Source of the DNA: Strix aluco | Taxonomy: Eukaryota > Chordata > Aves > Strigiformes > Strigidae | Reading direction: 5' to 3' | Assembly (NCBI RefSeq): GCF_031877795.1 | Contig: NC_133971.1 | Coordinates: forward strand, 84,778,446 to 84,842,445 | DNA length: 64,000 nucleotides | Shown: positions 15,440-64,000 of the stretch, piece after piece | Numbering within the stretch: the first letter of the stretch is position 1 | Layout of the letters: every line of letters starts with the position of its first letter | Translations under genes and position numbers: made by a program | Notes under the pieces: model-generated | Seen by the model: only the letters and a program-made list of their open reading frames with translations | What the model was told of the DNA's origin: nothing | The model's database searches: none

Positions 15440-16116
15440 AGGGGACACTCACTGCTGAGGGATCCTTCACCCACCACTGAGGAGACACCCACTGCTGAGG
15501 GGTCCATTGCCCACTGCTGAGGGGACAACCACCACAGAGGGATCCTTCACCTGATGCTGAGGGGGGACACCCAGGCTGAGGGATCCTTCACCCCTCGCTG
15601 AGGAGAGGGGACACCCAGGCTGAGGGATCCTTCACCCCTCGCTGAGGAGAGGGGACACCCAGGCTGAGGGATCCTTCACCCCTCGCTGAGGAGAGGGGAC
15701 ACCCAGGCTGAGGGATCCTTCACCCCTCGCTGAGGAGAGGGGACACCCAGGCTGAGGGATCCTTCACCCACCACTGAGGAGAGGGGACACCCAAGGCTGA
15801 GGAATCCTTCACCCCTTGCTGAGGAGAGGGGACACCCAGGCTGAGGGATCCTTCACCCCTTGCTGAGGAGAGGTGACACCCAGGCTGAGGGATCCTTCAC
15901 CCCTCGCTGAGGAGAGGGGACACCCAGGCTGAGGGATCCTTCACCCCTCGCTGAGGAGAGGGGACACCCAGGCTGAGGGATCCTTCACCCCTCGCTGAGG
16001 AGAGGGGACACCCAGGCTGAGGGATCCTTCACCCCTCGCTGAGGAGAGGGGACACCCAGGCTGAGGGATCCTTCACCCCCGCTGAGGAGAGGGGACACCC
16101 AGGCTGAGGGGTCCGC
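15440..16116. repeat. 44-bp minisatellite just upstream of the CA9 promoter
   Basis: From about 15563 to 16115 there are about 13 head-to-tail units of 44 bp. Each carries GGGACACCCAGGCTGAGGG, then ATCCTTCACCC, then CTCGCTGAGGAGA. Most copies are near-identical; a few differ by one to three bases (for example near 15790). From 15440 to 15560 the array decays into shorter divergent units, so homogenisation seems most recent on the promoter side. It ends about 175 bp before the CA9 TATA box. It has no spacers and so is not a CRISPR array. Confidence 0.95.
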
Positions 16117-16411: not shown

Positions 16412-19400
16412 ATGAGCCGCGCCGCGCTGCGGGTCTCCCTCCTGCTCCTGGCCGCCCTGGGCCGCGCCGGCAGCGAGCACGACCAGGAGCACGGCGGCGA
16501 GGACCCCCCGCACTCCCGGGAGAAAGGTGAGCGGGGGTCCCCCCGTACGCGGGGCGCCCCGAGGCGTGGAGCACCCCGCGGCTGCGTCTGGGGTCCCCCG
16601 TGCACGCGGCACCCTGATGCACGGTGCGCTCCGGATGCTGGGTTTGGGGTCCCTGGTGCGTGGGCATCCTGATGCGTGGAGCACCCCAATACTGCGTTTG
16701 GGGTCCCTGGTGTATGGGGTGCCCCGATGCATGGGGTTCTCCCCTTGCTGGGTTTGGGATCCTTGATGCATGGGGTACCCCAATGCATGGGGTGCTGGGT
16801 TCGGGATGCCTAATGTTTTGGGGGGTCCCCAATGCTGGGGAGCTCTCCCTTTGCTTGGTTGGGGGGGGGGCTGCTGTACTGCTGCACCCCTGTTAGGGGC
16901 CCAAGTCTGGGGTGCTCCTGTGGGGCTGTGCCCCCCCCCCCCCCCCCGCATCGCCCAGCTGCGGGAGCTGCCTCCCCCCGCCCCCCAGCACGTCCCTGCC
17001 TTTGTCCCCGCTCCCGCCAACTCCTGTGCGGCCCGACCCCTGCCCAGGGGCTGGGGGCCCCCGCCTTTTGTGCAGCTCTTTTCCTCCACTGTGTCCCGTT
17101 TGCATCAGATTAGGGGGCTCACAGCGGCTGGTGTGGGGGTAGCCGGGGCTGTGCAACAAGCAGCGCCTTGCCGGGACTGCCCGGAGGGTCCAGCCCCGGA
17201 CCCCGGTGTGGCGGGACGGCAGCCGGTCCCCTTTGTCCTGCAGCATGGCCTCTTCCCAGCGGGGTCCACTGTGCCTGGCCCTGCATCCACGTTGCCCCCC
17301 CACAGCCCAGCGAGGACGGCGTCTGACCCCACTGCGAGGTTGTTCCATGGCCGACGATGGGGAATGGGGGACGTGCCTGAACTCAGGGCTGGGTGGTGTT
17401 GTGTGCCCCCCCCTCCTCAAGAGTTTTGCTGGTGGTGTGGGGGCTTTCAGATTTCAGGGTCACTGTTTTGGGATAGAAGTCCTGGGTCTTTGGTCTCTGT
17501 CCCTTTTCTGACTCGGTACTGTGGCACTGCCAAGCACTCGGCAGGGATTTTGGGGCAGTGCCATGCGTTTGCTCTCGTGAGGCTGAACGCTGCACTGGGA
17601 TGATCCTGTCCCTGGCTACGCTCCTTGTCCCAGCTTTGCCTGTGGGTTTGTTTCCCGGGCTCAGCCTCATAGTGTGTCCTTGGTTTTGCCTCTGGTAAGG
17701 ACTTGCTCTGACCTGTGCCAGGACAGCTGCCCTGTGGTACGACCGACAATTGTTTGGTGCCAGGAGCTGCTTTTGTTATTGCAGTGAATCACATTTCTTA
17801 CTAGAGCTGCTCCTGCCGGGCTGAGCACTGGACAGAGATGGGGACGCGGATGGTCCTTGCCACAGAGATGAAGTAACCCAGGCCACAGGGTGGGAGGGCA
17901 TCAGTCGTTCAGCATACCGGTGTGGTGCACTGGCAGCAAGTGGTTGGGCACTGCATGGGGTTTGGGATGGGTGGGTGGGGAGACTGGGATGGAGATGGGA
18001 AAAGGAGGTGAAGGGTGGGAAGTGGCAGGGAGGTAGGTAGGGAACAGACAGCCTGGCCCATGCTTGTACCAGTGTTAAGAGGATGAAGATCTGGCTGGAG
18101 TCCTGTGAAGGAGCAGGTCTTGGCAGGCACCCACCAAGGCTCCTGCCGGGCGCTAGAAGCTGCATAGTACCACTGCCGGGCGACGTGCTGGCTCACTCTT
18201 CCTCGAGGCTTGTGCACAAGGCAAGGCTGGTGGTCCCCCAGGACTGGGTGCTCAACACAAGCCGGGGTGGGGTTGCCACTGAGGTTTTGCCATGGGGTTG
18301 CTCTCTGAGGAGCATCTGACTTGCCTAGAGACCTGAGTCTGTGGATGTCTTTGGGATACCATAACTCCCTTTCACACTGCAGCCTGTTTCTTCTCCCCCT
18401 CCTATTCAGACGTATCCTGCTCTCCATGTCGTCTTCTTGGTCATTCCCTGATGCCCTTTTTCTGCCGCTGAGTCCATTTCTCTTGCTTAATATTCCTTAC
18501 TCATCTCATTCCCCAGCTCCAAGCACTGATCTGGGATTTCCCCATTTTTATCCCTTCTGCTGGGGTGGCCCTTTCTCTGCAGCGCTCCGTGATTGTTTCC
18601 TCTTTCCCCTGCCACTTGTTGGGGCAGTTGGGTTCACAGGGAGCAGGAATGTGCCCTGGAGTAAAGCCTGCCCTATGCCTTCCTCTACCCAAACCCTTGC
18701 CGCTTTGTGGGGGGACCTGGCCCAGTCTTGGGCCCTGCAGCCCGAGCAGCCCTCCCCCAGGAGGGGGGAGCACAAAGAACAATCCCCACAGTGACCTGTG
18801 CTACCAGTGGCAGATTAAAGGCTGATCCCAAAGGCTTGCAGTGGGTCAGGGTTTATAAACACAAAGGGGCTTTAATGCAGCCAGGCTTGGGAGGGATCAG
18901 TGCTCCCATGGGATGGTGTTCTGGGCTGAAAGGGCATGGATGTTGCATGGGGCATGTGTCTGGATGGAGAAGCCAGGGCTGTGCTGGTGGATGTAGGGCT
19001 GGGATGGCACAGCTCTCCCATAGAGAGGCTCTTCATGGTGCTTGGCAGAAGGATGTTGGGTTGTACACCCCACTGCCTGGATCCCATGCCTGTGCCGTGC
19101 TTGCCACAGACTGGCCTGAGGAGCTGGCTGTGGGCAGCATGAGCACAGTGACACAGCCTGGGTACCATGATCAGGTTATTGCTTTCAATGCTTGGATGTC
19201 TTTTGTAGGCTGGGACCTGGCTGCTGTGGCTGGTCCCTGCTTTGGGACCTGCACTCTGTGTATCTCTGCATGTCCTGGTACCTCCTGGCTCCGCATCAGG
19301 AATAACATCCTGCTTTCCCTCTTCTCTGGGCCATGGGCTCCACTGGTCCCCCCACAACCTGGGACTGATCTGCAGACAGGGCTTCTTACTCAGGGGCACA

Positions 19401-22400
19401 GCAAGGTGGTCCTGCCCTGGCATCCCCTGCGAACTGGCCTCATCCCACAGGGCTTTGACCCAGGTCTGGCCCAGAGCTGGGTCCCAACAGGGAGAAGAGG
19501 CTCTGGCAGTATCCCAGTGCTCCCAGTGACTGAGCTCAGGGCATGGTGTGCCCAGTCGATAGGAGAGCGGGATGTCTGAGCTAGACACAAGCCCGCTGCC
19601 CTGCCCACCACACACAAGCCATCGAACTTTTGCTGGAATTCAAGGCGAGCAGGCAGCACCAATGGTTGTGTTGGTGCCAGGCAGCATCCACGTGGTGAAT
19701 GGCAGACATGTTTCAGTGTTGTCAGGTACCCTGCAGCAGCTTCAGGCTGTGTACCCCCTAAAATGTCAAAAGCTGAGGATGGAGGGGTCAGACCTGTAGG
19801 GCAGACCCTCTGTTCTCCCTCCTTATGCCTGGCTTTGCCAAGGGGTATCTCTTGCTTAGTGCAAATGATCCTGAGTCCCTTGGGTCCATCCCTATGTCCC
19901 CATGGTGAGGTTTCCCAGAGCAGCCTGCTGCATTGGTGCCTTTCCTACGTGGGATTAGCAGCGGCCTGCGGTTGTGCTGGCTCCTCACCCTGCCGAAAGC
20001 TGCTCCTACCCTTCCTCCCCAGCTGCAGGACATGCTGAGCAGCACGCTGGTAATGGCAGCGTCTGCCTGGACGCGGCAGGAAAGTGTTGTTGGATGGTGT
20101 TAGATGTCAAGGAGGGAAGGGAGCTGGCGCTTCGGCAGCGCCAGTATCCCAAAATGGGAGGGCCGAGAGGGCGTGAGCAACGGGAGAAAGCACGAAGGAG
20201 GGAGTGAGTGAAAGGGGGAGACTCGGCTGGATTGCAGGCTGCTGGGGGAAGGGGGGTCGCATTTAGTGCTCAGCTGGACTGGAGGGACTCTGTGTGACTG
20301 AGCATGGAGGATTTCTCACCTGCAAGGGCAGGCAGCTCCTGTTGATACCCTACTACGTTTTCCTGCTGGGACCCCTGCAAGGAGTCCTCTTCTTGCATGT
20401 TACATCCCAGTGTGCTCACAGCAGCAGCAAGGTCCCCCCACGCTTTTGGGAGTGCTTTGTAGTCCCTCCCAGGCCTGTGGGTGCTCAGAGGTAGGGCAAG
20501 GTGTGCAAAGAGCTGCAGCACCCACTGCTGAGGTGCAGCCACATCTGTTGTGGTGAGTGGCAGCAGTTCAGCAGAAAGGAGACTTGGCACCACACAGCTT
20601 TCCAAGGGAGAAGACGTGCTCCGGCGGGGAGCGTGGGAGGCAGTCTGAAATTATGCAAATCGACATTTGGGCAGGGCAGTGGGTTAATGTTCATGGCAAA
20701 GGGCTGTGAGATTGCAAATGCCCCCACGTGGAAGGGACCGGAGTATTGCAGGGCTCCTCCGAACCACACTGAGGTCGGGGCAGATGCTGAGAGCCCGACT
20801 CACCGCCTGGGCTGGACTCGCCTCGATCCTCTCCTGCAGCGCTCGGTGCATATGCCAAGGGGCACCAACCGTTCACAGCTGGGCTTGGGAGATGCCTTCC
20901 TGAGTGGGTGACCTGGCTGTGCTGTAAGCTGCGCACAGATCCACAGGATGGGGAAAACATATTTGTGTGGCTTCACTGCATAAATAAGTTCTCGTGGGTC
21001 CTCTTGGCTCTGATGCCCAGGAAAGTCTGTTGCGTTGTGGTGGATCGATCCAACTCCTGGGTGCACTGCAGCCTTCGGGGTGTTCAAAGCTGCTGCGCTG
21101 AGCTGGCAGGAAGCTGCAAGGAGGGTCTGGAACCCCCTTGGCTGTGGGAACAGACAGACACAGGGTGACGTGGGAGCCTGAGGTGGATGGCACAGTGCTG
21201 ACACAGCAGGGCAGGTGCCAGCACGGTGCCATTGTTCTAATCTACGATACGAAGTTTGAGTTGCTTTCTGTCAAGGCAGCGTCCCTGGAGGTGAGCAGAA
21301 GGCGAGGTGCTGGGGCGGGCCGTGCCGGTTGAGGCATGTGCAGTGAGCCAAGGCACTGTGTGCCAAACCCAGGCTGCTGTGCCTTACCTGTGCCAGGACT
21401 GCCCCGATGTGAGTGCCCCTTGGGGGGGCTCCCCATGCCAATAGGCACTCTCGTAGGAAGCAGCAAACGTGGCTCTTGTGTGCAAGCCATGACCACCTCA
21501 TGCAGACAGTGCCAGGTGGGGCAGGAGAGGGGGGACAGGGTGAGGGAAGATATAGGGTGTTTCCAGAGGAGGGTCGGTGTAGTCTCAATTTTGATGCGTA
21601 ATCAGTGACCGGAGAGCAGGTTACCTTTGTGTGAGCAGGGTGGGCAGGATGAATCTCAGCTTGCTGCAGCACAGCTGGGTGCATCCCAGAGCAGCGCTGT
21701 AGGCATGGAGAGGGCACTGCAGCCTGTCCCAGAGCTCACGTGTTCCTGCCTGATGCAGGCAGCCGTGGCTTGCCCAAGCCCTTTGCTTTCTGCCCCTTCT
21801 TTATATGCCTTTGGGAGTACCCCGTGCCTGGGCAAGTGAATCCTGAGCGTCAGAACCGCTGTAGGGATGAGTCACTGGCAATGCTGGAGGGAACCCCAAG
21901 GGCTGTTCCCATCTCTGCAACTCCCAGTGCCCCTAAGCACCCTCCAGCCCTTCCCAGCCCAGTTTTGCTGTGGCCATCCACTCTCCGAGGCAGCAGCTCC
22001 ACCAAAGGTCCCCAGCAGCACCCATGCCTGGATCCTTGCTGCGAGGAGGGCAGGATCCCGCTGGGCTTGGGCCTCGTATAGGACATCTGGGCCTGGGAAA
22101 GTGTGCCTCTTCCTTTCTCACCCCTGAGCTGGAATCTGCTTCTATTAATAGCAAGTGGCTGTCGATAGCTGTTGTCAGCAACAACGATGGGGATGGGAGC
22201 AGTGCCTGCTGAGCCCCTCCTGCCTCCTGGGCAGGCTGGCAGGCATCTGGCCCTACCAAGGAATAGAGATGGTATCAGGGCTGGACTGTACCTGCTAAAT
22301 GCGCCTTCATGTCCCTGCACCCTGGGGAGCTGATGGAATTGGGTGTAGATGCTGCCCCTTACTGCATGCAACCCTTCACCCCAAGCCTGTCATGACCTGG

Positions 22401-25400
22401 CACCCTCCATTCGTGCCCTTCTGGACTGGGATGTGCCAACAGCCTTGTCCGCAGTGACGAGCATGCTCATAAGGACAGGTCAGGGGAGGAGCCCGTGAAT
22501 TACCTGTTGTGCCAGTCAGGGCAGGGGCATAATCCTTATGGGCCAGGTTTCTCTGTAAATGCAAGCCCTGCATCCAAAACCCCGCAAATCCAAATCCCCC
22601 GCAAAGGGTTGCCTGGAGCTGGTTGCATGCAGAAGGGCTGGTGACAGCCAAGGTGTTTTGGTCAGGGGCATCTGAGAAGAGTTTCTGAGGCATCTCTAAG
22701 GCCAGCTCTAGCAACATGCTGGGAGCCTGAGCTGTGCTGGCAGCTCTAGAGGAGAGTGATGGTGCAAGGGCTGGTGTGTGGAGCACTGCTGTACGCTCAG
22801 GAGCTGCCCCAGGAGGGCTTTGCTCCCTCTAGATCTGCAGACTGGGGACACCCTGAGCCGTGGGAGGCTCAGGGCACACCAGGGCCTGCCATGGCCACAG
22901 GGTGCTCCATGGGGGACATGGGACATGCAGAGGTCCTGGCACGGGCTCCTCCATCCCCTCTCCTGCTTTTCCTAGAGAAGGGTTTGTGCATGGTAGGACC
23001 CTCATGTAACTCTGCATGGGGATTTGGGTGGTCGAGTGAGTTGGGGCAGGAGGCTGCTGTGACAGGAGCCGGGTGTTTGGTCTGGCACATTTTCCTGTGG
23101 CAGTCTGCCCCCATCGTAGGGGCACTCGCTGTTGAAGAAGACAAGGTTTTGGTGCTGATTTGCTTCCTCTGCTGTGAGTCCCAGGGCTGCTTTCTCTGGT
23201 GGGAGGAGGGTGTCTGCACAGTGCAATGCTGCTTGCTGCTCAAGCTCCTTATGGTGTGGGAGCTGCTCTTCCCCACACCCTCTCCAGTGCTTCAGCATTG
23301 CAGGAGTGTCACCAGGACAGCCGCTTCCCTGGCTGCACTTGCTTACAGAACCTGAACAGGGAAGCTGCAGACCTGCCTGCCTCATTAAAGTGCTTTGTCT
23401 TGGGATGTGGGATGTTTTGGCTGCTCCGGAGCTGCAAGAGCACTGGTACAGCTGCTCAGTGACGGAAGCCAGTATCTCTGATTTTTCCATTATAAGGATG
23501 ATAACAAAGTGTCAAACCCTGGAGTTTTCCTTCTGGCCAACAACTTCGGGAGACCTGGCCCTGCTAAGAGGAGGCAGTGCCCTCTAGGAGTATCCCCCTT
23601 GCTGGGGCAGGGGGAAAAGTGGGAAGGCGAAGGCAGGGAGGGGGATTGAAGGCAGTGGGAGCCCGAGACCTGCTGCCAGGGCTGGGAGCACTGCCTCGCA
23701 GAGGTGTGTTTGCTGCCAACCTTTCCCTTCCATTCATGTGTTTTTTTCCTTTTTTTTTTTTTTTTTTTCAAGGTCCTGGCCACAGTCACTGGAGCTATGA
23801 AGGTAAATACCCTGCAGTTACTCCTGCTTTTTTCCTACCACCTGGCAGACTCTGGGCCTGAGCCAGCCACGGTTAATGATTACAGGGCTCCTGTGCGCAC
23901 TCCATGGCTCACCCTTCCCACCTACCTGACCCTGATGCTTCAGCGGTGCCCAAACCTGGGCATGGATGGGCTGAAGAGCTGGGGATTGCTCTGATTTGAG
24001 CAGGAAGCAGCGGCTCCGCCAAGGGTTTCCCCAGCCCCCTGGGTGTGGGGGGAATGCTCCTTGGGCAAGGCTCCTCCCTGAACAGGAGCTCTCCTGATCC
24101 TGTGCCAAGTGGGAAAGCAGCTGGGCTCTCCAGACTGGACTTGCAGCCCATGCTGGGACTTTGACCTGCCCAGGGATTATCTTGTGTCCTCACCCCTGTC
24201 CTCTGTCACCCTCCCTCCCCACCCTGCCTGGCCCTGCCCACCCATCATGGCTTGGAGGGCTTCTCCACAGCCCCCATGATGGGCATTACTGCAGTGCTAG
24301 CACAAACACATCCCTTCCTGCTGCAGTGGTGGGCCAGGCCCCAGCACTGTCACTCTGCTTGGGACCAGGGCCTGGCTTTGACCTGCTAATGCCCAGCTCC
24401 ATTTTTATGGGGTTCCTGCAAGGGCCCGGACTGGGCATGATCCTGGGTTTGCACTGAGGTGTGCTAGAAGCAGCCCCCTGCAGTGCACGGAGAAGTTTCT
24501 GGGCCATCAGCCGTGCTTATCCGAGCTATGGCACTGGGAAGAGGTGACAGTTTAAACAGCCACCACAGCTATGTGAGCTGGCCCTTTGCAGGACTGTATC
24601 AGTGCAGTTAACAGCCGGGAACCTGTCCTGTGGCTGTGGGCTTGCGTGATCCCAGCGACACTGTGGTACCTCGCTTGAGTAGCAGTGCTGGTGAAGCGGT
24701 GGGTCAATACCTGCCAGGGGCCAGGCTGTGCAAGGCAGCAAGCGTGTGATGAGCTGCAGAGCAGCAGCTACTCAGCTTGCCAAGTCCACTTGTAAATGAT
24801 CTTCTCGCACTCTTTCCAAACACCCCAAAAATAGACTTTCCTGGCACTCACCATGCTCCGAGACCTTTCCCGATACAGCTGCATGCAGTCACATGGTGGC
24901 ACAGAGCTGCTTGATGGAAACTAACCTTACATGCATGGCTTATTTCCTGGCCAGTGCCTGTCCCCTTCCCCACCACCCACCAAACCTCATCTCTGGCGGG
25001 CTCCTTGCCCGGGCAGTCTCACTGGCACTCCCTCCCTTCCTCCTTGTACCAGACCGGGAGCACTGGGGTGTGGACTACCTGGACTGCGGGGGCAACGTGC
25101 AGTCACCGATCAACATTGACACAGCCAAGACCATCTTCAGCCCACAGCTGCGGCCGATCCAGCTCTCTGGCTACAGCCTGCCCGCCAATGAAAAGCTCAG
25201 CCTGAGGAACAACGGGCACACAGGTGGGTGCAAAGACACAGGCAGAGGCTGGAACGCAAGCAGAGGCTGCTCAGCATCTCCCAGCAGAACGGGGCTTGTC
25301 TGATGCCCTTCCCCTGGGCTCTGGGAAGGGGCTTCTCTTGCAGGCTGCAGTCATGTTGCCTTCAAGGCCAAAAGGGAAGCATCGGGCTGTTGAACCTTCA

Positions 25401-28400
25401 CAGGTCCATATGCTGTCCTGGCTGGAGGGAGAAACCAGGAGATGGAGAATTTGCCACTCACTGCCTTTGGGAGCTGGCTCCAGGAATTTGTTAAAACCCA
25501 CGTTTCCTTTAAAAATGTGTCCCTGGTATTTCTGATGTGGGTTGGCAGTCACTGTTCCTCCCCTGCATTTCACTTTCAAAGGACTAGTCAGTATCTGATG
25601 TGACTTAGCCTTTAAGGTACCTATCTCTCAGTCTTCTAGGACACATCATTGGCCAACTTCTTTAACTCTGTGCTTCAGGTTGCTATCTCAAGATCTTAAG
25701 AAATTTTTATAGGTCTTTTGTTTCCCATGTCCAGTTTTATAATTTTTTTTGGAAGGTCTGGACACAACTCACAGTATTTTATTGTCAGTCTCACCATGCC
25801 AGATATGGAGGAAAACCACATCTTCCCTCTCAGCACCCCACAGCTGGGGATCCTGGTTGCTACTAGCTTTTTCTGGGAGCAAGCCGAGTGTTTTGTGCAC
25901 GCTGGTGTCTGCCAGTCCCCAAGCTAAGAAAAGGTGGTGGAGAAAGGGACTTGAAAACTCACTGACAGTGTGATAAGGCACCCCCTTGCCCTGGTAGCTA
26001 GCAAAATGGAGCTGACCTGTGTATACAGCAAACTCAACAGGTTGGACTTGCCGTGCATGGTCAGATCAGCCGCACTCTGCATGCACAGAGCTTTATATTA
26101 TGGCCTTCTGCCCTAGCGTGCCTGCAGAGTTAAACAAGTTGAGCTCAGTAGTTGCTATTTTAGACACCCTGGCATCTGGTGTTGCTTGGTGTTTAGAAAA
26201 GCATTTTCATTGGGGTGGGGAAGTAGTTTCTCACATGCTTTAAGATGCCTTTTTTTATTCTGGCAACTAGCTGTCTGCTTTATGAAAAGCCATAAATAAA
26301 TAAAAAGTTGCAAGTCCAGTAAGATACTTGTACAGTCACTCCTTTTTGTAATATAAAGTGTGTATGCTGTGTAAGCTTTTTCAAGGTCCTGAAAATGGCT
26401 CAGGTAGCTAGTAGAAGGAATGCAGTGATTTAGATATCTGCTTTTACATTTCTTTTGTATAAATTCCCAGGTAGGGAGCAGTCTCCCACTTCCTGTATTT
26501 GAGTTTTGTATCTCTGAACCCAGTGGCAGGGAACACAGGAGAGGACAAATGACTCATCACAGCCCTGTTACGTAGATAATCCTGAATCTGTGCCCTAGCT
26601 CGGTGATGTGACTAAGGGACACTTCACCTATAAAGAGGGAGAAAGGAAAAGTGTTGATATTAAAAATGAGGAAAAGGTGCTTAGAAGCACCTAGAAAGGT
26701 GCTGAGAAGCCTTTCTCAGGTCCAAGAATGCTTCTGGTATTTTTGCCATGTGTCCGGGTAACTCAGCTTTTAGATTTGCCACACTGCTGCATGAGTCCAA
26801 GATAGTTGGCTAAACCACATGAAAGTAAAAGGTAAAACCAAGTATATATTTACCATGCCCAAAGCGGCAAAATTTTAGCTCTTAATGCTTTCAAAAGATT
26901 TAATGCTTCTGTGCCACCAGTGCTGTCAGACACTCACAGGCTGCTTTATGTGAAAGGTCCCAGCTTGACAAGTGCTGCAGCACTCTGTCCAACTGCCCTG
27001 CTCTTATAGGTATTCATCACTCTGCCAGTATCTTTCCCCATGAATTTTGTCCACGATCTCTTTTTATATTATTCTCACTTACTGAATAAATTGTTGGATA
27101 ACATTTGACTTGGAGCTGGCCCCTGTGAGTCTCTGCAGAGGGGCTCTTCCCTTTTCAGCGTTTTCATAGCAGCTATTTTTGAAGCTTATGTATGTACTGA
27201 GATGTCCTGCAACCTGAAGTTGAAAGTTGAACCCTGCTGCATTGGCACAGGTCTGGGTATTGGCTTGCCTGTAGCCTCATGAAAGATGGAAAGCAAGTTT
27301 GCTGTGACCAATTTCCAGAAGCTGAGGGTGACTCTCTCCCTTGAGATATCTCCTCTGTGTACCTGTGGGATGGACTGGGCTTTGTGTTTTACTGACCAAC
27401 CTCTTCCTTCTGTTTCTGCAGTTCTCCTTGAGCTGCCCCAATCACTGGCCATCACTGGCGGCTATGCCCAGCAGTACCGAGCCGTGCAGCTGCACCTGCA
27501 CTGGGGCTCCTCGTCGGGACCTGGCTCAGAGCACACTATCGATGGGCGCCGCTTTGCTGCAGAGGTAAGGAACCCTCATAGTGGTGGATGCATCCTCCCC
27601 TCTCCTGGCGCTGGGCAGGGAAGGTACTGGAGTGCTGTCTTGCTCCTAGCCCAGGGCTCTGACTGTCACTGGATGAACGCTGTAACCCCTGGCCAGGATC
27701 CCTTCTCCCTGGGCAGCTCTGCAGCAGTAGAGTTCAGTGTAGGAGGCCAAGCTTTGGTGCTGAGCCAGACTCACGCTGCGGCCTGTGGTGCAGAAGCGAG
27801 TGGGAGACCACCCTCCAGGATGCTCTGCCCGCAGGTGGGCTGGGGTTGGGCGAGTGTGAGTGGTGCAGCCTGTCCCCATGCCGCAGCCTGGCCCTGGGCT
27901 GATGGAGCAGGAGCTGCGGCAGTCCCTGGGCTGGGGGAGCCAGCTCCCCAGGCGGCTGTGAGCAGCCTGCTTTGGGAGCTGCAGGGAGTGTTTACTCTGT
28001 ACACACTGTCCTCCTGCTCTGCCAGCTCCCATCTGGTTTTATCTCTCCTTCTCTAGCTGCTGTCCTCAGACTGAGCCTCACTCTGCAGTATGACCCCCTG
28101 GTATCTAGGGCAGAGTGCTGGTTTGCTTTCCCTGACCAGGGAAGTTCCTGCAGGCAGACCTTCATGCTTGCTGCTTTGCAGCATCACATTTTCTTGGTCC
28201 CACCAGCATATTCCCCTCTTAGGAGAGGGTGCTCATTATGGGTGCATGTCTCTTCTGGCCCTTGCTCTGGCAGGCTGGAGCCCTGTAGTGGTGAGCACCT
28301 CCTGGAGGTGCCCGTCCTGCATCGGGATTGCACGGTTCCCTTCCAGATCCATGTGGTCCACTACAACACCAAGTATGACACCTTTAAGGAGGCAATGGTC

Positions 28401-31400
28401 CACCCAGATGGCCTGGCTGTACTGGGAGCCTTCCTGGAGGTGAGTTCCATAGATCATCCCTGGGTGAACAGAGAGAAGGCAGGACTGGGATGGGCAGAGT
28501 CAGGCACAGTTTTGGGGACTGACAAAGGTGCAAATGCTCCTGGGGAGAAGGGGAGAGAGGGCAGTTGAGAGGGCAGAGCAGCCCTGATTGGAGGAAGGGG
28601 TCACGAGGATTAGGGTGCCTCTCACAGGGAGAGACACCTTCCTGCTGGCACTGCCATCACCAGCCAGTCTCAGCCCCTGTCCTTGTCATTACTGTGGGGT
28701 CTCTGTGTTGCAGGTTGGGCCGAGGGAGAACCCATACTATCAGGAGATACTTGAGCATCTGCACAAAATCCAAAAAGAAGGTAAGGCCCTGCCCCACTTA
28801 GTACGTGTCTCAGGGGCTGCAGCCTAGCAGAGCAACCTGCTGCATGGCAGAGAGAGGCTGTGGCAGGCGTTTGCTGTGTGTATGTGAGAAGGGGAGCATT
28901 GTACAGCTTGTACAGAAACAGCTCTCCAAGGTGCCCTCTGCTCGCACGTGCTTTCCTCTGCCTCCAGGGCAAACCCACTGCTCCTTCTCCAGGGCAGCAG
29001 TGGCAGCAGTGTGGACCCTGGCACATGCAGTGCTGGGCTGCCTGGGATCCCCGTGCTGGTCCTGCCTGATGCCCTCCAAGGGGTTTCCGTGATCTCACTC
29101 CCATGGTGTTTCTTCTCCCAGGTGAGGAAGTCTTGGTGTCTGGATTCAACATTGCAGGTCTGCTGCCTACCAACCTGAAACTCTACTTTCACTACAACGG
29201 CTCTCTGACCACCCCTCCCTGCTACCAGACGGTGAAGTGGACGGTCTTCAACCAGACCATGCTACTCTCTCATGAACAGGTCCGTCAGAGCAATGAGCTC
29301 AGCCTCTCCCTGCAGGTGTGCACCATCCGTGCCAGTCACCTGGGGCTCACCTGGCTCCCAAAAGCAGGATGCACCCTGCTCTGCTCACGCCGTTCTCCTT
29401 ACAGATGTCAATACTGGTGATGAGCCTGAGAAATGACGACAACAAACCTCTGCAGAACAATTACCGGATGGTGCAGGACATGCACGGGCGACGGGTGCTG
29501 GCGAGTTTCCAGACCACCCTCTCTTCAGCGAAGCAGCTGCCTACTGGTAAGGAGCATGTGAGCGTGCTCAGGCTGCACCCAGCTGCAGGGGTGCAGAGAT
29601 GGAGTGAGGAGCAGGAGTCAAGGCTTGGCGTCTCCTACAAAAGTGCAGCATTTGCATGGGGTAGCCCTGCCTGGCAGGTGACTTACTGCAGCACTGGTCT
29701 TGGTGTCCTGCTCTCCCTCATTTCTGCACTTCTCTCACCCTGCCTGGGGAAGATTGGTTTCTAGGAACTATTTTATCCTTGGCCTTGCAGAAATAACAGT
29801 AGTGGGACTAGGGGGTGTGTATCATCAAGGTCCTAGCATCCCAGCTAGCTTCATCCCCAAACGCAATAGCTAAATTCAGTAAGAGCTGCAGAGGTACGGG
29901 CTTGCAGCAAGCACCCCACCGCCAAACCCTGTGGGAAGGGCAGTGCAGGGGACCCCTCCTTAAGGCTGTGCTCTGCCAGTGGGGCCATGCAGCCATCTGG
30001 CCAGGCACATGGTCCCCTGCCTGAGGCATCCCTGTCTGCCCATCCTCGGTTTGTCCTCGAAGGCCTTTCTTGCATTAGTGGCTTCCAGTGATGAGTAGAA
30101 ATTCCTGTTAATACTTAGGTGTGACTATCGCTCTGCATCACTGAATTCTTGCCTGTTGCTGCTCTCTGAGGTCACTGGGGTTTTTCTGTCCCAACATCCT
30201 GTTCCTTTTCTGTTTTGATAGCATTTTCTACACCTTGTGTCAAGGTGACTAATAGAAGCAGCACACAGGCTTGGTCCCAGGCCCTTGGGCAATGCCTCCG
30301 TAACCACACACCGTGGTGCAAGGCACTTCCCTTCACCGTCCCACCTGCAGCCAGCTCGCTAACAGCTGAAGGCTTTTAATCACCATGGTCTTCAGCCTGG
30401 CTAGCAGTTTCCCATGTGGCACTGCATCAAATGCTTCACTGAAGTCGGGAGAGATAAAATCTACCACATTTTCTTTGTCTAGAATATCACTTATCAAAGA
30501 AGGATATCGGGTTAGGCTGGCATGCTCTATCTTTGGTAAACCTGTTAGATACTTTATCATATTTTCCATTTACCTCCAAGCCTTTCTTTTACCACTTTCA
30601 TGCAGAAGCTGTTCCAAAGCCTCCAGCTGCCAAGGCTGGGGTGAGGGGGTAGTTACCCAGCTCACCTTTTTTTTTTTTTCCCCTTTCCTTATTTGTTATT
30701 TCTATCCAACAACTCCCACTTTAACAAAGCCACGAAGCCCTTATTCCTGGAGTGCCAGGACACTGTCCCAGTACTCCTGGGTGAGGTTACTGGACCCCAC
30801 CTTGCATGCATGAGGCTGTTGGGGTTCTCCTCACCTCGGTGCTGATAACTGCTTGCTTTATCCCTGGGGCCACTGAGCACCAAGACGGAGTGCTATGGGG
30901 TCACATATTGTTCCACTTGCAGCTGCACCTCCTGCGCCCACGCTTGTTGGTCTTTCCCCAGTCACCCCCAGTTCAGAACAGCCACTCCTGCCCCTGGCTG
31001 CTGGGTGAAGGCGGCGGCTTCCCCGCAGTGGCTATGCAGCTGAATACAGCCCACAGATAGTGCCACTCTGTGCGCAATACCCGAGCCGTGTACAGATGAT
31101 AATGCAGCTGTTTAAAAGCCACGCTGTCACGCTGGGTAAATATTAGCCCAGCACAGCTCCTGCCCAGCATGTCGGGCCACCGAGCCATCCCCGTGCAGGA
31201 TGCCCTGTCGGCAACAGCTGCTCACCTCCTCCTGGGCAGCTGCTCACCATCTCGCTGCAGGCAACTGTCCCCATGGTTGCTGCCTGCTGGGCTCACCCCA
31301 TGTTCCTCTCCGGGGTCTCCTGCAGGGTTTGGTGCATTCATGGGGTGCTGCAGCGCTCTGCACCCTCCCTGCCTGCTTCCCGGGCAGTGGCAACAGCAAT

Positions 31401-32336
31401 GGGGGCGTTTCTGACTGGGCTCAGCAAGGCTTTTGTGTGGGCTGTGATTCAGGGATACTTTTTTTTTTTCCACCTTCCCTCAATGCTTCTGGCAGGGTGT
31501 CAGGGCTAGGCTTCCTGCAGCAAGACGTTGCGAGCTGCTGGGGACCTGGCAGGCCGCTCTCCCCTGCCTGCTTACGGGCGATGGGCAGTCTTGCAGGCAG
31601 CCCTGCTTTGGTGGCGAGGCATGAAGCCCTGCAGGCTTGACACTTCCCTCCCCAAACACCTCAGGCAACCTGTTGACCATGCTGTCTCTCTTCTAGGTAA
31701 TGATGGCTCAGCAGCAACAGGTAGGTGAGGGGCTGGCCTGAAGGAGGGAAAGCGGCTGGGGGGTGTACCTGCCGGGGAAGGGGGGTCCTGGCAAGTGTGT
31801 GATGAGCTGGGGGGCAGGCAGCCACAGTGGCTTTGTGGGGCAGCCCTAGCATCTGTGCAGTTGGTTCTCATCCTCTCATCTTTGTCTCCTTTGCAGAGGG
31901 ACACTCCAGCTCTTCATTTCACGCAGGTAAGCGTCCTTTTGGGCTACAGGCCTGCCTCAGCTTTGCCCCATATCCCTCAGCCAGTAGCTTCAGGTGACCA
32001 TCCCCAGGGTAACATGCCTGTGCTTGGCTTGCAGGGGACGTGCTGGCTGTCCTCTTCGGGGTACTCTTTGCCATCACGGCACTGGCCTTCCTGCTATACA
32101 TCTACAAGCACCGCAGCCAGAACACACGGTGAGTGATGGGGAGCTGCAGGAGGAGAGGGCTCAGCAGGGTAGCACTGGTCTGGGGCATAAGAAGTAGGGG
32201 TTAAGAGCAGCCTCTTGGGCAGCAAGGTGGATTAGCCTGCTCTTAACACTCCCTCCCTTCCTCCCCCACCAGGCTGGACTCGCCAACCAAATCCAAGGTC
32301 ATCTACACAGCAGCCACCACGGAGAACACGGCGTGA
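16412..32336 (+). CDS. CA9: Carbonic anhydrase 9, membrane-anchored
   Basis: Twelve coding exons: 16412-16526, 23773-23802, 25053-25223, 27422-27564, 28347-28439, 28714-28780, 29122-29279, 29405-29546, 31697-31720, 31897-31926, 32035-32128, 32273-32336. Together they give 376 aa, with GT donors, AG acceptors and frame kept throughout. It should catalyse CO2 hydration outside the cell. Order: signal peptide (1 to about 20), short acidic stretch (21-38), alpha-carbonic anhydrase domain (about 45-300), short stalk, membrane helix (about 326-348), basic cytoplasmic tail. Zinc ligands are His130, His132 and His155; proton shuttle His104; Glu142 and Thr236 complete the active site; Cys60 and Cys240 can form the usual disulfide. 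Asn232 (NGS) and Asn250 (NQT) are glycosylation sites. The tail (KVIYTAATTENTA) also resembles CA14 and CA12, so the name CA9 rests mainly on the TPM2-TLN1 neighbourhood. Human CA9 has a much longer acidic proteoglycan-like domain. Confidence 0.92.
16540..16840. repeat. Degenerate minisatellite in CA9 intron 1
   Basis: Right after exon 1 a unit of roughly 50-55 bp recurs about five times, recognisable by TTTGGGGTCCCTGGTG followed by GATGCATGGGG and GCACCCC. Copies differ considerably, so the array is old or not homogenised. The long minus-strand open frame across it has repeat composition and is not taken as a gene. Confidence 0.75.
16841..23772. other. CA9 intron 1, no further gene recognised
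   Basis: This 7.2-kb GC-rich intron shows several long open frames on both strands, but none has recognisable protein similarity and all look composition-driven. Poly-C and poly-G runs occur near 16860 and 16930. A tract of about 22 consecutive T at 23748-23768 forms the polypyrimidine stretch of the next acceptor. Confidence 0.5.
23773..23802 (+). other. CA9: CA9 exon 2, 30-bp microexon
   Basis: The microexon adds GPGHSHWSYE, the HW.YE sequence that starts the carbonic anhydrase fold in CA9, CA12 and CA14. It enters and leaves in phase 1 and is a multiple of three, so skipping would keep frame. The acceptor is a long T tract ending in CAAG, with AAG instead of the commoner CAG or TAG. The donor is GTAAAT. 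Confidence 0.85.
25224..27421. other. CA9 intron 3, nothing further recognised
   Basis: A 2.2-kb intron, clearly more AT-rich than the flanking GC-rich exons (for example 25660-25760 and 26230-26400). No open frame with recognisable similarity and no clear repeat are seen. Confidence 0.45.
30330..30580 (-). mobile_element. Old LINE (CR1/L3-like) reverse transcriptase fragment in CA9 intron 8
   Basis: On the minus strand a conceptual frame carries FISPDFSEAFDAVPHGKLLA, a decayed version of the [12 protein letters not shown] palm motif of CR1-type reverse transcriptases. The flanks have the look of ancient L3/CR1 copies. It is short, truncated on both sides and degenerate. Confidence 0.65.
31697..31926 (+). 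other. CA9: CA9 stalk microexons 9 and 10
   Basis: Exon 9 (31697-31720, 24 bp, GNDGSAAT) and exon 10 (31897-31926, 30 bp, EGHSSSSFHA) encode the Ser/Thr/Gly-rich stalk between catalytic domain and membrane helix. Both are phase 1 at each end and multiples of three, so either or both can be skipped without frame change, altering the distance of the enzyme from the membrane. Their residues suit O-glycosylation. A frame-keeping alternative exon in this region is known for human CA12. Confidence 0.8.
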
Positions 32337-33261: not shown

Positions 33262-33267
33262 TTTATT
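33262..33267 (-). terminator. Poly(A) signal of the APH1 gene
   Basis: AATAAA on the minus strand (TTTATT on plus). It would end the APH1 transcript near 33245, giving a 3'UTR of about 0.9 kb after the stop at 34136. CA9 and this gene converge tail-to-tail with under 1 kb between their stop-proximal ends. Confidence 0.7.
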
Positions 33268-34135: not shown

Positions 34136-37100
34136 TCAGGATCCCGGCTGGGGGCTGGGTCCACTCCGTAGACCTGCAGGAACCAAGAGGAGAGGGGGTC
34201 ATTTTCAACAGACTCCTTATCCATCCACTTACCCCAGGAGAGGCAACAACCCGACTATAGCTCCAAAATCCAGCTTCTCCAGTCTCCAAGGGGATGACAA
34301 CCTCGTTCCAGCCCTGGGGCCACCCTCTGCCCCTCCCAATGCCAGTCCTGGTACCCAGAGGGACCCACAGGGTCCCCCATCCCCTTTACGGAGCAGGACT
34401 TACATAGCAGGAAGCGCCACAGGTTCTGGGCAGATCCCCCTGAGAGCAGGTAAGCCCAGGCAGCAGCAGTGGCCATCAGCAGGTAGGAGGGTACCAGGCT
34501 GCCCACATACAGGGGGTTGCAAAACGTCTGGGGAGAGAGGTGGGAGAGGAGAGGGGTTAGCAGGCAGGAGAGGAGAGAGAGAGAATCACCGCCTTGATGA
34601 GTGGAGCAGGACAGGGGACACCAGCTCCAGGATTCAGTTTGTGAAGGGGCAGCTGCAAATCCCCAAAACCCAACTGCTTTGCCAGTGCCAAAGGCTGTTC
34701 CCCTCCCCTGGCACAGGGACCAGCACACACCACAGATATCCCCAAATGTAGGTCCTGGCGCAGAGCTCTGTCCCAGCTACTCACCGACCCCGAAACAGCA
34801 AGGTGCATGACAACGACTGCCGTGATCTCCCACCAGCGCCGATGCTCACAGCCATGGAAGAAGAGGATTCCCCAGAAGGTGTGAAGGAAAATCAGCACCA
34901 TGGTCATAAAAGCTGCAGGGAGCAGCAGAGGAGTGTCACCAGGGAACCACCCGCCCTGACCTGGCCTGCAGGCTTAAGGAGGGATGGAGAGGATCTGGGA
35001 AAGGGGAGTCAGGCACTGCTGGGCTGGACTGGGGGGTGCTGGGGCAGACCCTGAGTGTGGGACAGATAGGGGAGAGGAGCAGGGAGGGTCACAGGAGACA
35101 GATGGGTTTGGCACAGAGAGATGTGATAGGGGACTGTAAGGGGCTCCAATAGGTAGAGGGTGCAGAACGGAGGGGAAACTCCAACCCCTGAGGTCTGCTG
35201 CCTCTGTGGTGGGGCAGAGACATGGGCAAAGGGTGCCAGTCACTCACCTGAGGTCAGGAAGTAGAGCTGTGAGTCCCCATGGATCCCCACAGTGCCGGGC
35301 CCTAACGCGTCTGCCAGGAGGTTGATCATGGAGAAGGCGCCACTCATAAGCCCAAATCCCACACCAGCCACTGCCGGGAGAGGGACATTGTCAGGCCCTG
35401 AGCCTCCCAGGGCCACCCCAGGCACCTCCCAGCCAGCTTTGAAACCTCCCTTTCCCCCCAGCACTGTGCCCAGCCCTGCCTGGGCTTGCCCCTGGCCCCG
35501 CGGTCGGGGTGCTCTGCTCTGTGCAGCACTTACCATATGCCATTTGCTGGATGGAAATGGGGGAGCAGCCGTCCTCGCTGAGGGCCACCAGCCCCTCAAT
35601 GGCCTTCCTGTGGGGTGAGAGCATGCTGGAGCCCAGCACAGCCCGGCCACCTCCCAGGGCATGGTGCAGCACCAAGATGGAGCAGACGGGACCGGGGTCT
35701 CACTCTGCACCCTCCCGGTAACCGCCCACCATGGAGAGCTTCCGCGTGACCACCCTGAACCATCAGACAAACCACGCATGTGAAAACCACGCAAAGCCAC
35801 ATAGCAAGATTTTCCACAGAGGAATGTGAGTGCCAGCCAGCCCCGCAGAGCAGGGCTTGGGGGAGCGGGACAGCGGGTGCAAAGCAAGCAGCACCCCCGC
35901 ACGGAAAGCAGCCCCAGTGCAGGCGTGGGAGGTGCATGCTGGGAGGGTGTACCTGATCCTGGCATTTATACTCTTTAGAAGATGTTGAAAAAAAAAATGG
36001 AGGGGGTGCAGAGAAGAGCTCAAAAAGCTAGGAAAATTCTTTGGGGAGAGAAACTGGGAGAGGTGGGATTCATCATTTTTATCAGCTAGAGGTGTGGTGG
36101 GTGAGGAGGACGCCTGATGGCTCCTCAGCCCGGGGAGGACAGCAGCGCTTGCAAGTGGAGATCCGCAGGGCAACTGAAACGCAGTGGTGCTGAAACTCCA
36201 TGGAGCTCTGCTACCCTCTGCCTGCCTGCCTCTGGCAGTGCCCTGCCGCAGGGAGCGGTGCCAGCCAGTGTACACGGCCTTCCCCAAACCCTCGCCAGCA
36301 CCCAGCTGGCCAGGAAGGCTCAGGGATATGAGGGATGCCAAACCCAGCACCACCTCCCCTTGTCTGCCTGCCCAGCCCCAGCGCAGTGTCCATCCGTCCG
36401 TCTGTCCGAACACAGGACGGGGGGGTGCAGTGCGTGCTCGCTCTGGGCTGGTGGCGCCAGGGAGGCCGGAAGCTGCTGAGGCTGCGCTGAGACTTTGCCC
36501 TGGGCTGGCCAGGGCACTGAGCACAGGGCTGGTGGCGATCTGTCACCCCACAGAGCCCCAAAACCACCTTCAGGCTGTCCCTGCTCACACAAAACTGTCC
36601 CTAAGAAAGGAATGAGACTTGCCAGGAGGCGACGGCAGATCCCTATCCCTTCTCTGTCCCCCACGCAGCAAAGCAAGCATTTCCCGGTGCCTGGCATCCC
36701 CACGGCGTTCCCCTGAGCTGCAGGAGCACTGCTGGTTCTAGTCACCAGGGCAGAGAGGATGTGACAGGTCCTGCAGCAGCCTAAACCCACAGCCTACCTG
36801 TCCCAAATTCAGGGAGATGCTACCAGCCACCTCAGCCCTAAGTCCTCCAGACCTTAGGGCTGCTCTGCTCCACCACCTGAGACCCACCCGAGGTCAACAT
36901 ACCAACACAGGTACCACCCGCGGCTCCCAACGAGGACTGAGGCGGCTTGGTGCCACACTTGGCAAACCCCCCAGCCCAGGAGCTCCCAGCCAAAATCTGG
37001 CACCCACCACGGCCAGGAGGACGGGCAGTGCTGGAGCAGGGTGGGAGATGCCCTTTACCTGAGGAGCTTGTAGTAGAGGAAGCGGAAGGCCTCCTGCAGC

Positions 37101-38454
37101 AGCACAGAGAACATCACCCCAAATATCAAGAGCCCCTTCTGCAACGGCTCATCCCGGGGGTCGCTGGCTTTAACCGCGATAAACCAGATGAGGGAGGAGA
37201 GCAGCAGGGACACCAGCCAGAAGAAAGCCCTGCAAGAGAGAGAGCGCCTGCTGGCACCAGTGCTGTGCTGGGACCAGTGCCGTGCCAGTGCCGGTGCCAA
37301 GCCCAGGCCCATCGGCACTACGCCTGCACCCCTCTGTGTTGGTACCGGCACTGGCAGCTGTGCCCCGCTCTCCTACTGGTACCAGTCTGGGCAGGTGGTG
37401 CCTGCACCAGTACTACTGCTGCGCCTGCACTCCTCCTCTGCTGGTAACCAGAACTGGCACCAGTGTCCGCATTGTGCCTACACCAGTACCAGGCTCATAC
37501 CCACACCAGTACCAGTACTATACCTGACTGATCCCACAGTAGTACTGGTACCAGTGCCCCTGCTGCACACATGCACCAGTAACACCACCAATCCTGCAAT
37601 GAGTGTCCCCGATGTACCCACAACAGCACTGGTACTGATCGCCCAGTTCTGCCTCCACCAGTATAAGTAATGTCACTGTCACACCCATACTGTCCTGTCC
37701 ATACTGGTACTAGCCCCTCTGTCATGTCCATACTGGTACCAGCACTAGTAGCAGCACCCCCATCACATCATACTAGTACCAGTAGCCTATTAAGCCCATA
37801 CCAGTACTGGCACTGGTACCAGTGCCGCCATCACATCCCTACTGGTACCAGTGCCGGCACTGGTACCAGCGTCCCATCACATCCCTACTGGTACCAGTAC
37901 TGGCACTGGTACCAGCGTCCTGTCATGCCCACACTGGTATCAACAGCAGCACTGGTACCAGCATCCCCATCGCACCCATACTGGTACCAGTGCCTGCACT
38001 CGTACCAGCGCCCCCATCAGACCCATACCGGTACCAGCACCCCCGCCGTACCCACACCGGTACCACTACCGGCACCGGTACCAGCGCCCCCGTCAGACCC
38101 ACAGTGGTACTAGTACCCCCGTCGCGCACATACTGGCACCAGTACCAGCACTGGCACCAGCACTCCTGTCACACCCATACCGGTACCAGTACCGGCACTG
38201 GCACCGGCACCCCCTCAGACCCATAGTGGTACCAGTACCGCCGTCGCGCCCATACTGGTACCAGTGCCGGTGCCCCCATTACAACCACACCAGTACCCAC
38301 AGTGGCACCAGTGCCCCTCCCGGTGCCGGTGCGGGACTGACCCGGCGATGAGGATGATGATGCGGAGGGGGTCGCGAGCGATGGTGAAGAGGAAGAGGCC
38401 GAGCGCCGGACCGAAGGCGATGAAGGTGCACCCGAAGAAGACGGCGAGCGTCAT
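34136..38454 (-). CDS. APH1 family gamma-secretase subunit, candidate third APH1 paralogue
   Basis: Seven minus-strand coding exons: 38342-38454, 37059-37229, 35534-35607, 35248-35370, 34785-34912, 34404-34527, 34136-34173. They give 256 aa with consensus splice sites and unbroken frame. APH1 is the seven-helix scaffold that assembles with nicastrin, presenilin and PEN2 into gamma-secretase. The family start MTLAVFFGCTFIAFGPAL is present. The helix-4 GxxxG residues Gly122, Gly126 and Gly130 and the essential His171 and His197 fall at the same numbers as in human APH1A. GPGTVGIHGDS is also conserved. Similarity is mixed: the N-terminus and SAFMT resemble APH1B, the SEDGCSPISIQQMAY loop resembles APH1A. 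Seven coding exons match APH1A. The C-terminus (CLRSGPSPQPGS) is unlike both and depends on the GTAAGT donor after 34404. Mammals have no APH1 between CA9 and TPM2. It could be a third ohnologue or a relocated APH1A. Confidence 0.93.
37250..38335. repeat. GGTACC-rich minisatellite filling APH1 intron 1
   Basis: Units built around the palindrome CTGGTACCAG or CCGGTACCAG alternate with CATCACATCCCTA- or CACCCATA-like spacers. At least fifteen GGTACC cores are seen between about 37340 and 38310, densest from 37730. Adjacent units often place two palindromes about 20 bp apart (for example 37840-37910), which would allow hairpins. The array ends only a few bases before exon 1. Long open frames across it encode low-complexity His-Trp-Tyr-Gln-Thr repeats and are artefacts. 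Confidence 0.92.
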
Positions 38455-44752: not shown

Positions 44753-57877
<13,125 letters not shown>

Positions 57878-62943: not shown

Positions 62944-63822
62944 TCAGTTCTGCTCCTCGTCCCGCAGCTCCGAGGGCAGGAACTTGTACTGCTGCTGCCG
63001 AATCATGGCCAGCTTCTTCCGCGCCTCCTCCAGCTCCCGCTCCTTGCGCAGCATCTCCTCCTGGGCGGCGATGATCTGCCGGGAGAGAGCCCTGGGGTCA
63101 CGGCCGCCTCCAAATGGGATGGCAGGAGCCTCTGCTGCGGCAACGCTGACCCCAGAGCTGGGCTCTCTGGCTGCTGCTTCCCCCCAATCACAGCCACAGC
63201 CTCCCTGGGCTGCTGTGGCCCCGGGCATGAGAGCTGTTGTCCCTGTGGTGGGACCACAGTCCTCTGGCGACAATGAGCAGCACAGCTCCTGGGGCTCAGC
63301 CCCACACGCATATAGCCCGTGGCCAGGAGGCAGCGCTGGGACCTGTGGCAGCCGGTACCAGGCAGCTCTCACCCCTTACCCGATGCTCTGCCCTCCACAG
63401 GGGTCATGGACACAGGGATCGTGTGGGCACTGCACCAAGAAGCAGCCAGGGTGTTACTACACCCCCGGGAGTGTGCATCATCACCGGCTGTGCCCACTGC
63501 TACCCGTGGCAGGATGAGTGTGAAGTCAGTGTTTAACTGGGACTGGGTGGGATGGGTGCACCCACAGCATTTTCGTGAGGCTCTCTGGAGCCCTGTGCTG
63601 GTGGCGGTGGTAGGACACGCTCCTGGGATGGGCACACACAAGTTGAGGTGGCAGCCAGAGCCACCTCTGCCCCATCAGAGCAACCTCACTCCTCACCTGT
63701 GCAATTCCCCCGACCATCTTCTCCTTCACCACCACCGTTTCGTCGTGGTCCTGGAAGGCAGCTGCCTTCTGTGCTGCCTTCACCAGATTGTCAGATGCTC
63801 TCTTCACCGCGTTGCCAGCGGC
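62944..63822 (-). CDS. TLN1: Talin-1, last two coding exons (gene continues past the window)
   Basis: Minus-strand exons 63697-63822 (42 aa, in frame 0) and 62944-63075 (43 aa plus stop). They encode the end of the R13 helical bundle and the C-terminal dimerisation helix of talin, which with R13 forms actin-binding site 3. Talin links integrin tails to actin at focal adhesions. Recognisable: AVKRASDNLVKAAQKAAAF, DETVVVKEKMVGGIAQ, IIAAQEEMLRKERELEEARK and the end QQQYKFLPSELRDEEQN. TLN1 rather than TLN2 is indicated by TVVVKEKMV and FLPSELRDE. The loop before TVVV (AFQDHDE) is about one residue shorter than in human. The 3'UTR runs down to about 61850; the rest of this large gene lies beyond 64000. 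Confidence 0.96.
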
Positions 63823-64000
63823 CTGCAGCAGGGAAGGGAGGGGCAGCAGCGTTAAGTCACAGCCCCAGGGTAGGTCTGCTGCCCGGGGGGGTGCAAAAAC
63901 CCTGCCCCAGGCCGGGCTGGCAGGCAGGAGAGGCAGCCAGGAGTGCTGGGAGCTGCAGGCAGGGATTCCTTTACATGGCTCGATGCCTTGCCACCCGCTC

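Follow-up and report, generated by a model that had tools for sequence, protein, structure and literature searches.

The 64,000-nucleotide stretch of Strix aluco DNA analyzed here (the window) contains an APH1 gene that we interpret, with a probability of about 0.92, as a third vertebrate APH1, the C type: a genome-duplication copy, lost in mammals, that likely acts as an alternative scaffold of gamma-secretase and gives birds their second type of this enzyme. The third APH1 class is real, old, and intact; within the literature searched it is new as a described class, and it is ordinary in kind. APH1 is part of gamma-secretase, which cleaves Notch as well as the Alzheimer's precursor protein. 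The subunit forms an early scaffold with nicastrin and joins presenilin and PEN-2.

The gene is encoded on the minus strand, from 38454 to 34136, and comprises seven exons separated by six GT-AG introns (phases 2, 2, 1, 1, 0, and 1), which yield a 771-nt coding sequence for 256 amino acids without an inner stop. Exon 1 (38342..38454) begins with the ATG at 38454, in the start codon context CCCGCCGCCATGACG, and ends at a GT donor in phase 2; its first 36 amino acids match human APH1B/APH1A. The splice model placed exons 2 (37059..37229), 3 (35534..35607), and 6 (34404..34527); exon 4 (35248..35370) contains the residues G122, G126, and G130, exon 5 (34785..34912) contains H171 and H197, and exon 7 (34136..34173) encodes the short tail LRSGPSPQPGS and the stop codon. 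Downstream, an AATAAA at 33262..33267 on the minus strand is the probable poly(A) signal, identified purely as a sequence match. The protein matched the Pfam Aph-1 family (PF06105) with 308 bits (cut-off 25.6) over model positions 1-231 of 231, which places it within the family, and it carries all five of the glycine and histidine residues listed above, as expected of an Aph-1 protein. The splice model and the Pfam score confirm the original prediction of an intact seven-exon, 256-residue APH1 with these motifs. In a simple hydropathy scan, neither the window protein nor the alligator A and turtle B proteins gave a clean pattern of seven membrane segments, and the scan was set aside. Degenerate tandem arrays rich in GGTACCAGTACTGG, with periods of 17 to 122, were observed in intron 1 (37249-38312) and were densest at 37799-38312. 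Rfam searches at gathering thresholds gave no match anywhere in the window.

Examination of the flanking regions revealed a carbonic anhydrase, a tropomyosin, and a talin-1 gene, from which the order CA9 (+), APH1 (-), TPM2 (-), TLN1 (-) follows. CA9 (16412..32129, plus strand) is convergent with APH1 and was delimited from its probable ATG to its membrane segment, with approximate outer limits. Three joined exon pieces scored 156.4 bits with CA9, 141.6 with CA14, and 130.7 with CA12, and the membrane segment, which ends at 32129, resembles that of CA9. The exons of TPM2 (44756..57772, minus strand) were located with a TPM1 query. When joined, they scored highest with full-length TPM1 chains (448.7 bits), the TPM2 sequences matched being pieces only; for comparable pieces, however, the beta-chain (TPM2) scored higher than TPM1, with 291.0 versus 258.6 for residues 46-210 and 168.6 versus 93.9 for residues 1-98, and the gene is therefore read as TPM2. 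The 3' end of TLN1 (62947..64000, minus strand) was recognized by a last exon that matches talin-1, with the C-terminus at about 62947-63099, and by a further exon seen by eye; the gene continues past the window. These matches bear out the predicted placement of APH1 between CA9 and TPM2, and add TLN1 beyond TPM2. Three other features of the window were observed. A frame at 52729-52854 (minus strand), in the TPM2 region, resembles tropomyosin exon 1b, an exon that mammalian TPM2 is not known to have. Immediately upstream of the probable CA9 start, 15537-16114 holds 13.2 copies of a 44-bp unit with 95% matches. Long, reverse-transcriptase-like open frames on the plus strand (85-903 and 907-1221) appear by eye to be the end of a CR1-like LINE.

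Phylogenetic analysis was carried out with 67 proteins picked from match lists, namely the window protein, 25 further C rows, 22 A rows, and 19 B rows; the rows were sorted into A, B, and C from the match lists before the tree was built, and the groupings for the AU tests were set after the tree was seen. The unrooted tree resolved three clans, each with support of 100/99 and each split off intact by a branch in all 200 bootstrap trees. The window APH1 was located in the third clan (C), outside both the APH1A and the APH1B clans. Its companions in this clan are Callorhinchus, Amblyraja, Erpetoichthys, gar, bowfin, teleosts, Latimeria, a caecilian, two salamanders, squamates, a turtle, an alligator, and birds; on this sequence evidence, the C type is not bird-specific. 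All three clans include cartilaginous, ray-finned, and lobe-finned fishes, and the presence of cartilaginous fishes in every clan indicates that the A/B/C split predates the crown of jawed vertebrates. Adding seven further proteins left the three groups undivided. A fly APH1 outgroup attached near the base of C with a branch of 2.3, lowered several supports, and yielded no usable root. A further APH1, P0112, has a tail like that of B and branches off at the root of the B clan without falling among its 19 named rows (branch 0.46); our guess is that it may be a cyclostome sequence.

Because the tree is unrooted, timing with respect to the two genome duplications relies on synteny. The gene list excerpted from one cattle study gives USP3, CA12, APH1B, RAB8B, RPS27L, LACTB, TPM1, one unnamed Ensembl gene, and TLN2 (PMC10048491), and in human rs34714364, a synonymous CA14 variant, lies 3 kb from APH1A (PMC4740817). 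Two further excerpted cattle lists run ARHGEF39 (or C9orf100), CA9, TPM2, and TLN1, with APH1 absent (PMC10818672, PMC11112828), and to that extent they agree with the original prediction that mammals have no APH1 between CA9 and TPM2. In these excerpts, a block of linked families of the kind expected of ohnologs recurs around the known APH1 genes, with four families for APH1B and CA14 alone for APH1A. Given the carbonic anhydrase, tropomyosin, and talin genes in these lists, the window is laid out as a third such block should be, and it includes the APH1 gene missing from the cattle lists. On this reading, the early vertebrate genome duplications would have produced several related regions, of which the CA9-TPM2-TLN1 region holds the C-type APH1 and its sisters hold APH1B (CA12-APH1B-TPM1-TLN2) and APH1A (next to CA14); the C gene was presumably lost in the mammalian lineage. 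An old third class could also have arisen by a different duplication, for example a segmental copy made before or between the two genome duplications, and an unrooted tree cannot date the split. We nevertheless consider this origin improbable, because four linked families (CA, APH1, TPM, and TLN) recur around APH1B in the excerpted list, a recurrence for which block duplication is the simple account.

Residue comparisons were used to examine how the C type relates to the two named classes. Seven sites are fixed (at least 90%) with different letters in A and B; at four of these C has the B letter and at one the A letter, so that the mixed A-like and B-like signature suggested earlier was only partly borne out. 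At five sites (A59, R95, A121, G181, and S232), C is nearly invariant and has a letter other than those common in A and B. Of these, A121 lies beside G122 of the glycine motif and may be a site of altered helix packing. The glycine and histidine positions themselves are invariant across the three clans with two exceptions: position 130 is S in one of 22 A rows, and position 171 is N in one of 26 C rows. The classes are told apart most clearly by the cytosolic tail: A rows mostly end in the form VMVYSALQxPxED and B rows mostly in KDFLLxxxRxR, whereas C has neither, and sauropsid C rows frequently end in the form CLRSGxxPQxGS.

The four shared B letters, together with depositor names such as Aph-1b-like and APH1B secretase among the matches listed, would be the grounds for regarding the window gene as APH1B, as many bird and reptile depositors label it. 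This identity is very unlikely. Caretta, Mauremys, Geotrypetes, and Latimeria have a B type alongside C, the window protein is without the KDFLL...R tail, and forcing 14 tetrapod C rows together with 10 tetrapod B rows cost 86.1 log units (p-AU 1.4e-5), so the AU test rejects a misnamed APH1B. It is about as improbable that the gene is retained but non-functional or unexpressed. Against this reading, the frame and splice sites are intact and only W240 among the 256 residues is absent from the other 25 C-type rows in the set, so that a decayed copy is rejected, and identity to the alligator C protein is 90.2%. The other three bird C rows have 87.5-87.9% identity to alligator C, and six bird A rows have 72.1-88.3% identity to alligator A (the birds differing from those of the C set); from these values, birds seem to conserve the C type no less firmly than A. 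That the window gene is the bird's only APH1A, relocated, is extremely unlikely: the protein does score higher with the human APH1A chain of the solved complexes than with the APH1B chain (344.8 versus 295.6 bits), and some depositors label bird copies APH1A, but it lacks the A tail, birds have an A type besides, which falls with the A proteins of alligator and turtle, and the union of four bird C rows with six bird A rows was rejected by the AU test at a cost of 230.4 log units (p-AU 3.5e-46). The clans and both AU tests thus support the candidate proposed originally, a third vertebrate APH1 distinct from A and B.

The distribution of the three types was examined with three protein searches, clustered at 90% identity, of which the best 120 matches each were combined into 286 different proteins. 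The queries were the window protein (best 120 of 922 matches, list down to 352 bits), platypus APH1B (best 120 of 915, down to 380 bits), and alligator APH1A (best 120 of 777, down to 371 bits). Birds lead the matches listed for the window protein (with, for example, 96% identity across 99% of the query, and 99% across 90%), followed in the same list by alligator (90% across 100%) and a turtle (87% across 100%). One profile was built per clan and each of the 286 proteins was assigned to its best profile, the 66 profile-building proteins included; the margin was below 25 bits in only one of 286 (P0112). Organism groups were taken from the listed names, which 25 proteins lacked, and the counts refer to protein clusters including isoforms, not genes.

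Among the 286 matches listed, the A/B/C counts were 43/0/29 in birds, 2/0/1 in crocodilians, 11/0/13 in squamates, 2/6/6 in turtles, and 1/1/0 in the tuatara; mammals gave 13/36/0 (placentals), 2/2/0 (marsupials), and 1/2/0 (monotremes), and amphibians 8/0/0 (frogs), 1/0/2 (salamanders), and 2/4/1 (caecilians). Among the same matches listed, the fishes gave 1/1/1 for the coelacanth, 1/0/0 for lungfish, 1/1/1 for bichirs, 2/1/0 for sturgeon and paddlefish, 0/0/3 for gar and bowfins, 0/29/20 for teleosts, and 5/3/2 for cartilaginous fishes, and nameless entries gave 5/13/7. Among these 286 matches listed, the entries from birds (72), crocodilians (3), and squamates (24) thus include no B type, and the mammalian entries no C type; a zero means none among the best 120 of each search, and little should be read into the small zeros (tuatara C, gar A/B, lungfish B/C, and frog B/C). 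If mammals had a C, or birds a B, conserved like its relatives, it should appear among the matches listed, since such relatives score above the list ends (426 and 424 bits for two salamander C proteins with the window query; 482 and 465 bits for the turtle B proteins P0122 and P0124 with the platypus query); a strongly diverged or fragmentary copy, or one within 90% of a listed protein, escapes them. As a separate observation, the 8 listed frog entries are all A type and the 49 listed teleost entries all B or C, which may reflect further class losses.

Several species have more than one type among the matches listed. All three were found in Latimeria and Geotrypetes; A with C in the birds Ciconia maguari, C. 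boyciana, and Falco naumanni and in the reptiles Alligator, Heteronotia, Paroedura, and Pogona; B with C in Mauremys reevesii, Caretta, Erpetoichthys, Callorhinchus, Scleropages, and Megalops; and A with B in platypus, tuatara, and Heptranchias. In Apteryx, the C entry belongs to one species and the A entry to another. With both entries present in each of the three birds, the refuting case set out originally, an APH1A relocated in a bird that has no second one, does not apply to birds. An extra gamma-secretase type for birds, as first proposed, is not supported: with no B among the listed bird entries, birds seem to hold A and C where mammals hold A and B. Birds would therefore seem to keep two types like mammals, but a different pair, and for the window's own bird the presence of A and the absence of B are inferred from other birds. 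The different pairs that mammals and birds appear to retain are the strongest surprise of the analysis.

On balance, we favor a history in which an ancestor had three genes and the second types of mammals (APH1B) and of archosaurs and squamates (C) are not orthologous, although with appreciably less assurance than the identity of the gene itself. Mammals would have lost C, archosaurs and, separately, squamates would have lost B (birds, crocodilians, and squamates all seem to lack it), turtles would have retained all three, and teleosts would have dropped A. If this is true, the functions ascribed to APH1B in mice would be carried by a different gene in birds or be absent. The C-type protein would most likely take the APH1 scaffold position in gamma-secretase as an alternative subunit, together with presenilin, nicastrin, and PEN-2; as the same birds also have A, its complexes would constitute a second enzyme type, one not built on APH1A. 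That the choice of APH1 paralog can matter is suggested by work in mice, in which Aph1b-gamma-secretase reportedly had a selective role in Nrg1 signalling (PMC4073283). Birds are a natural test of the contribution of APH1B, and APH1 is a compact example of a three-copy set thinned differently in each vertebrate group.

Databases already carry the C-type gene, named Aph-1b-like, APH1B, or APH1A among the matches listed, and all 10 checked entries named APH1A, APH-1A, or APH-1A-like are of the C type. Given a third class that ranges from cartilaginous fishes to birds and has no mammalian entry among the matches listed, its name alone does not make an APH1 gene of chicken, lizard, or fish the counterpart of human APH1B. 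Accounts of gamma-secretase usually give it two alternative APH1 subunits, as in the excerpted text of a review (PMC4075077), and the available parts of this zebrafish review and of a 2026 table (PMC13050203) give aph1b or aph1 only. No description of a third APH1 class or of its mammalian loss was found in the literature searched, which omits most subscription journals.

Comparison with known systems places the C type beside, but apart from, the two human proteins. The human APH1A chain (5a63 and others) aligned without gaps with the window protein over residues 3-249, with the glycine and histidine positions common to both, and APH1A adjoins the carbonic anhydrase gene CA14 as the window APH1 adjoins CA9; the window protein nevertheless belongs to a separate clan, is without the VMVYSALQxPxED tail, and has R95 and A121 where APH1A has K and S. 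With APH1B (human chain, 8oqy) it shares T2, I36, M128, and M163, and the CA12-APH1B-TPM1-TLN2 region parallels the window block; here too the clan is separate, the KDFLL...R tail is missing, and G181 and S232 stand where most B rows have A. Mouse Aph1c is likewise an APH1 beyond the human pair, but its row sits inside the B clan, in keeping with its description, in the excerpted source, as a rodent duplicate of Aph1b (PMC4073283), and it is not of the C type. A copy of APH1B of this rodent kind is rejected for the window gene by its position in the tree outside B.
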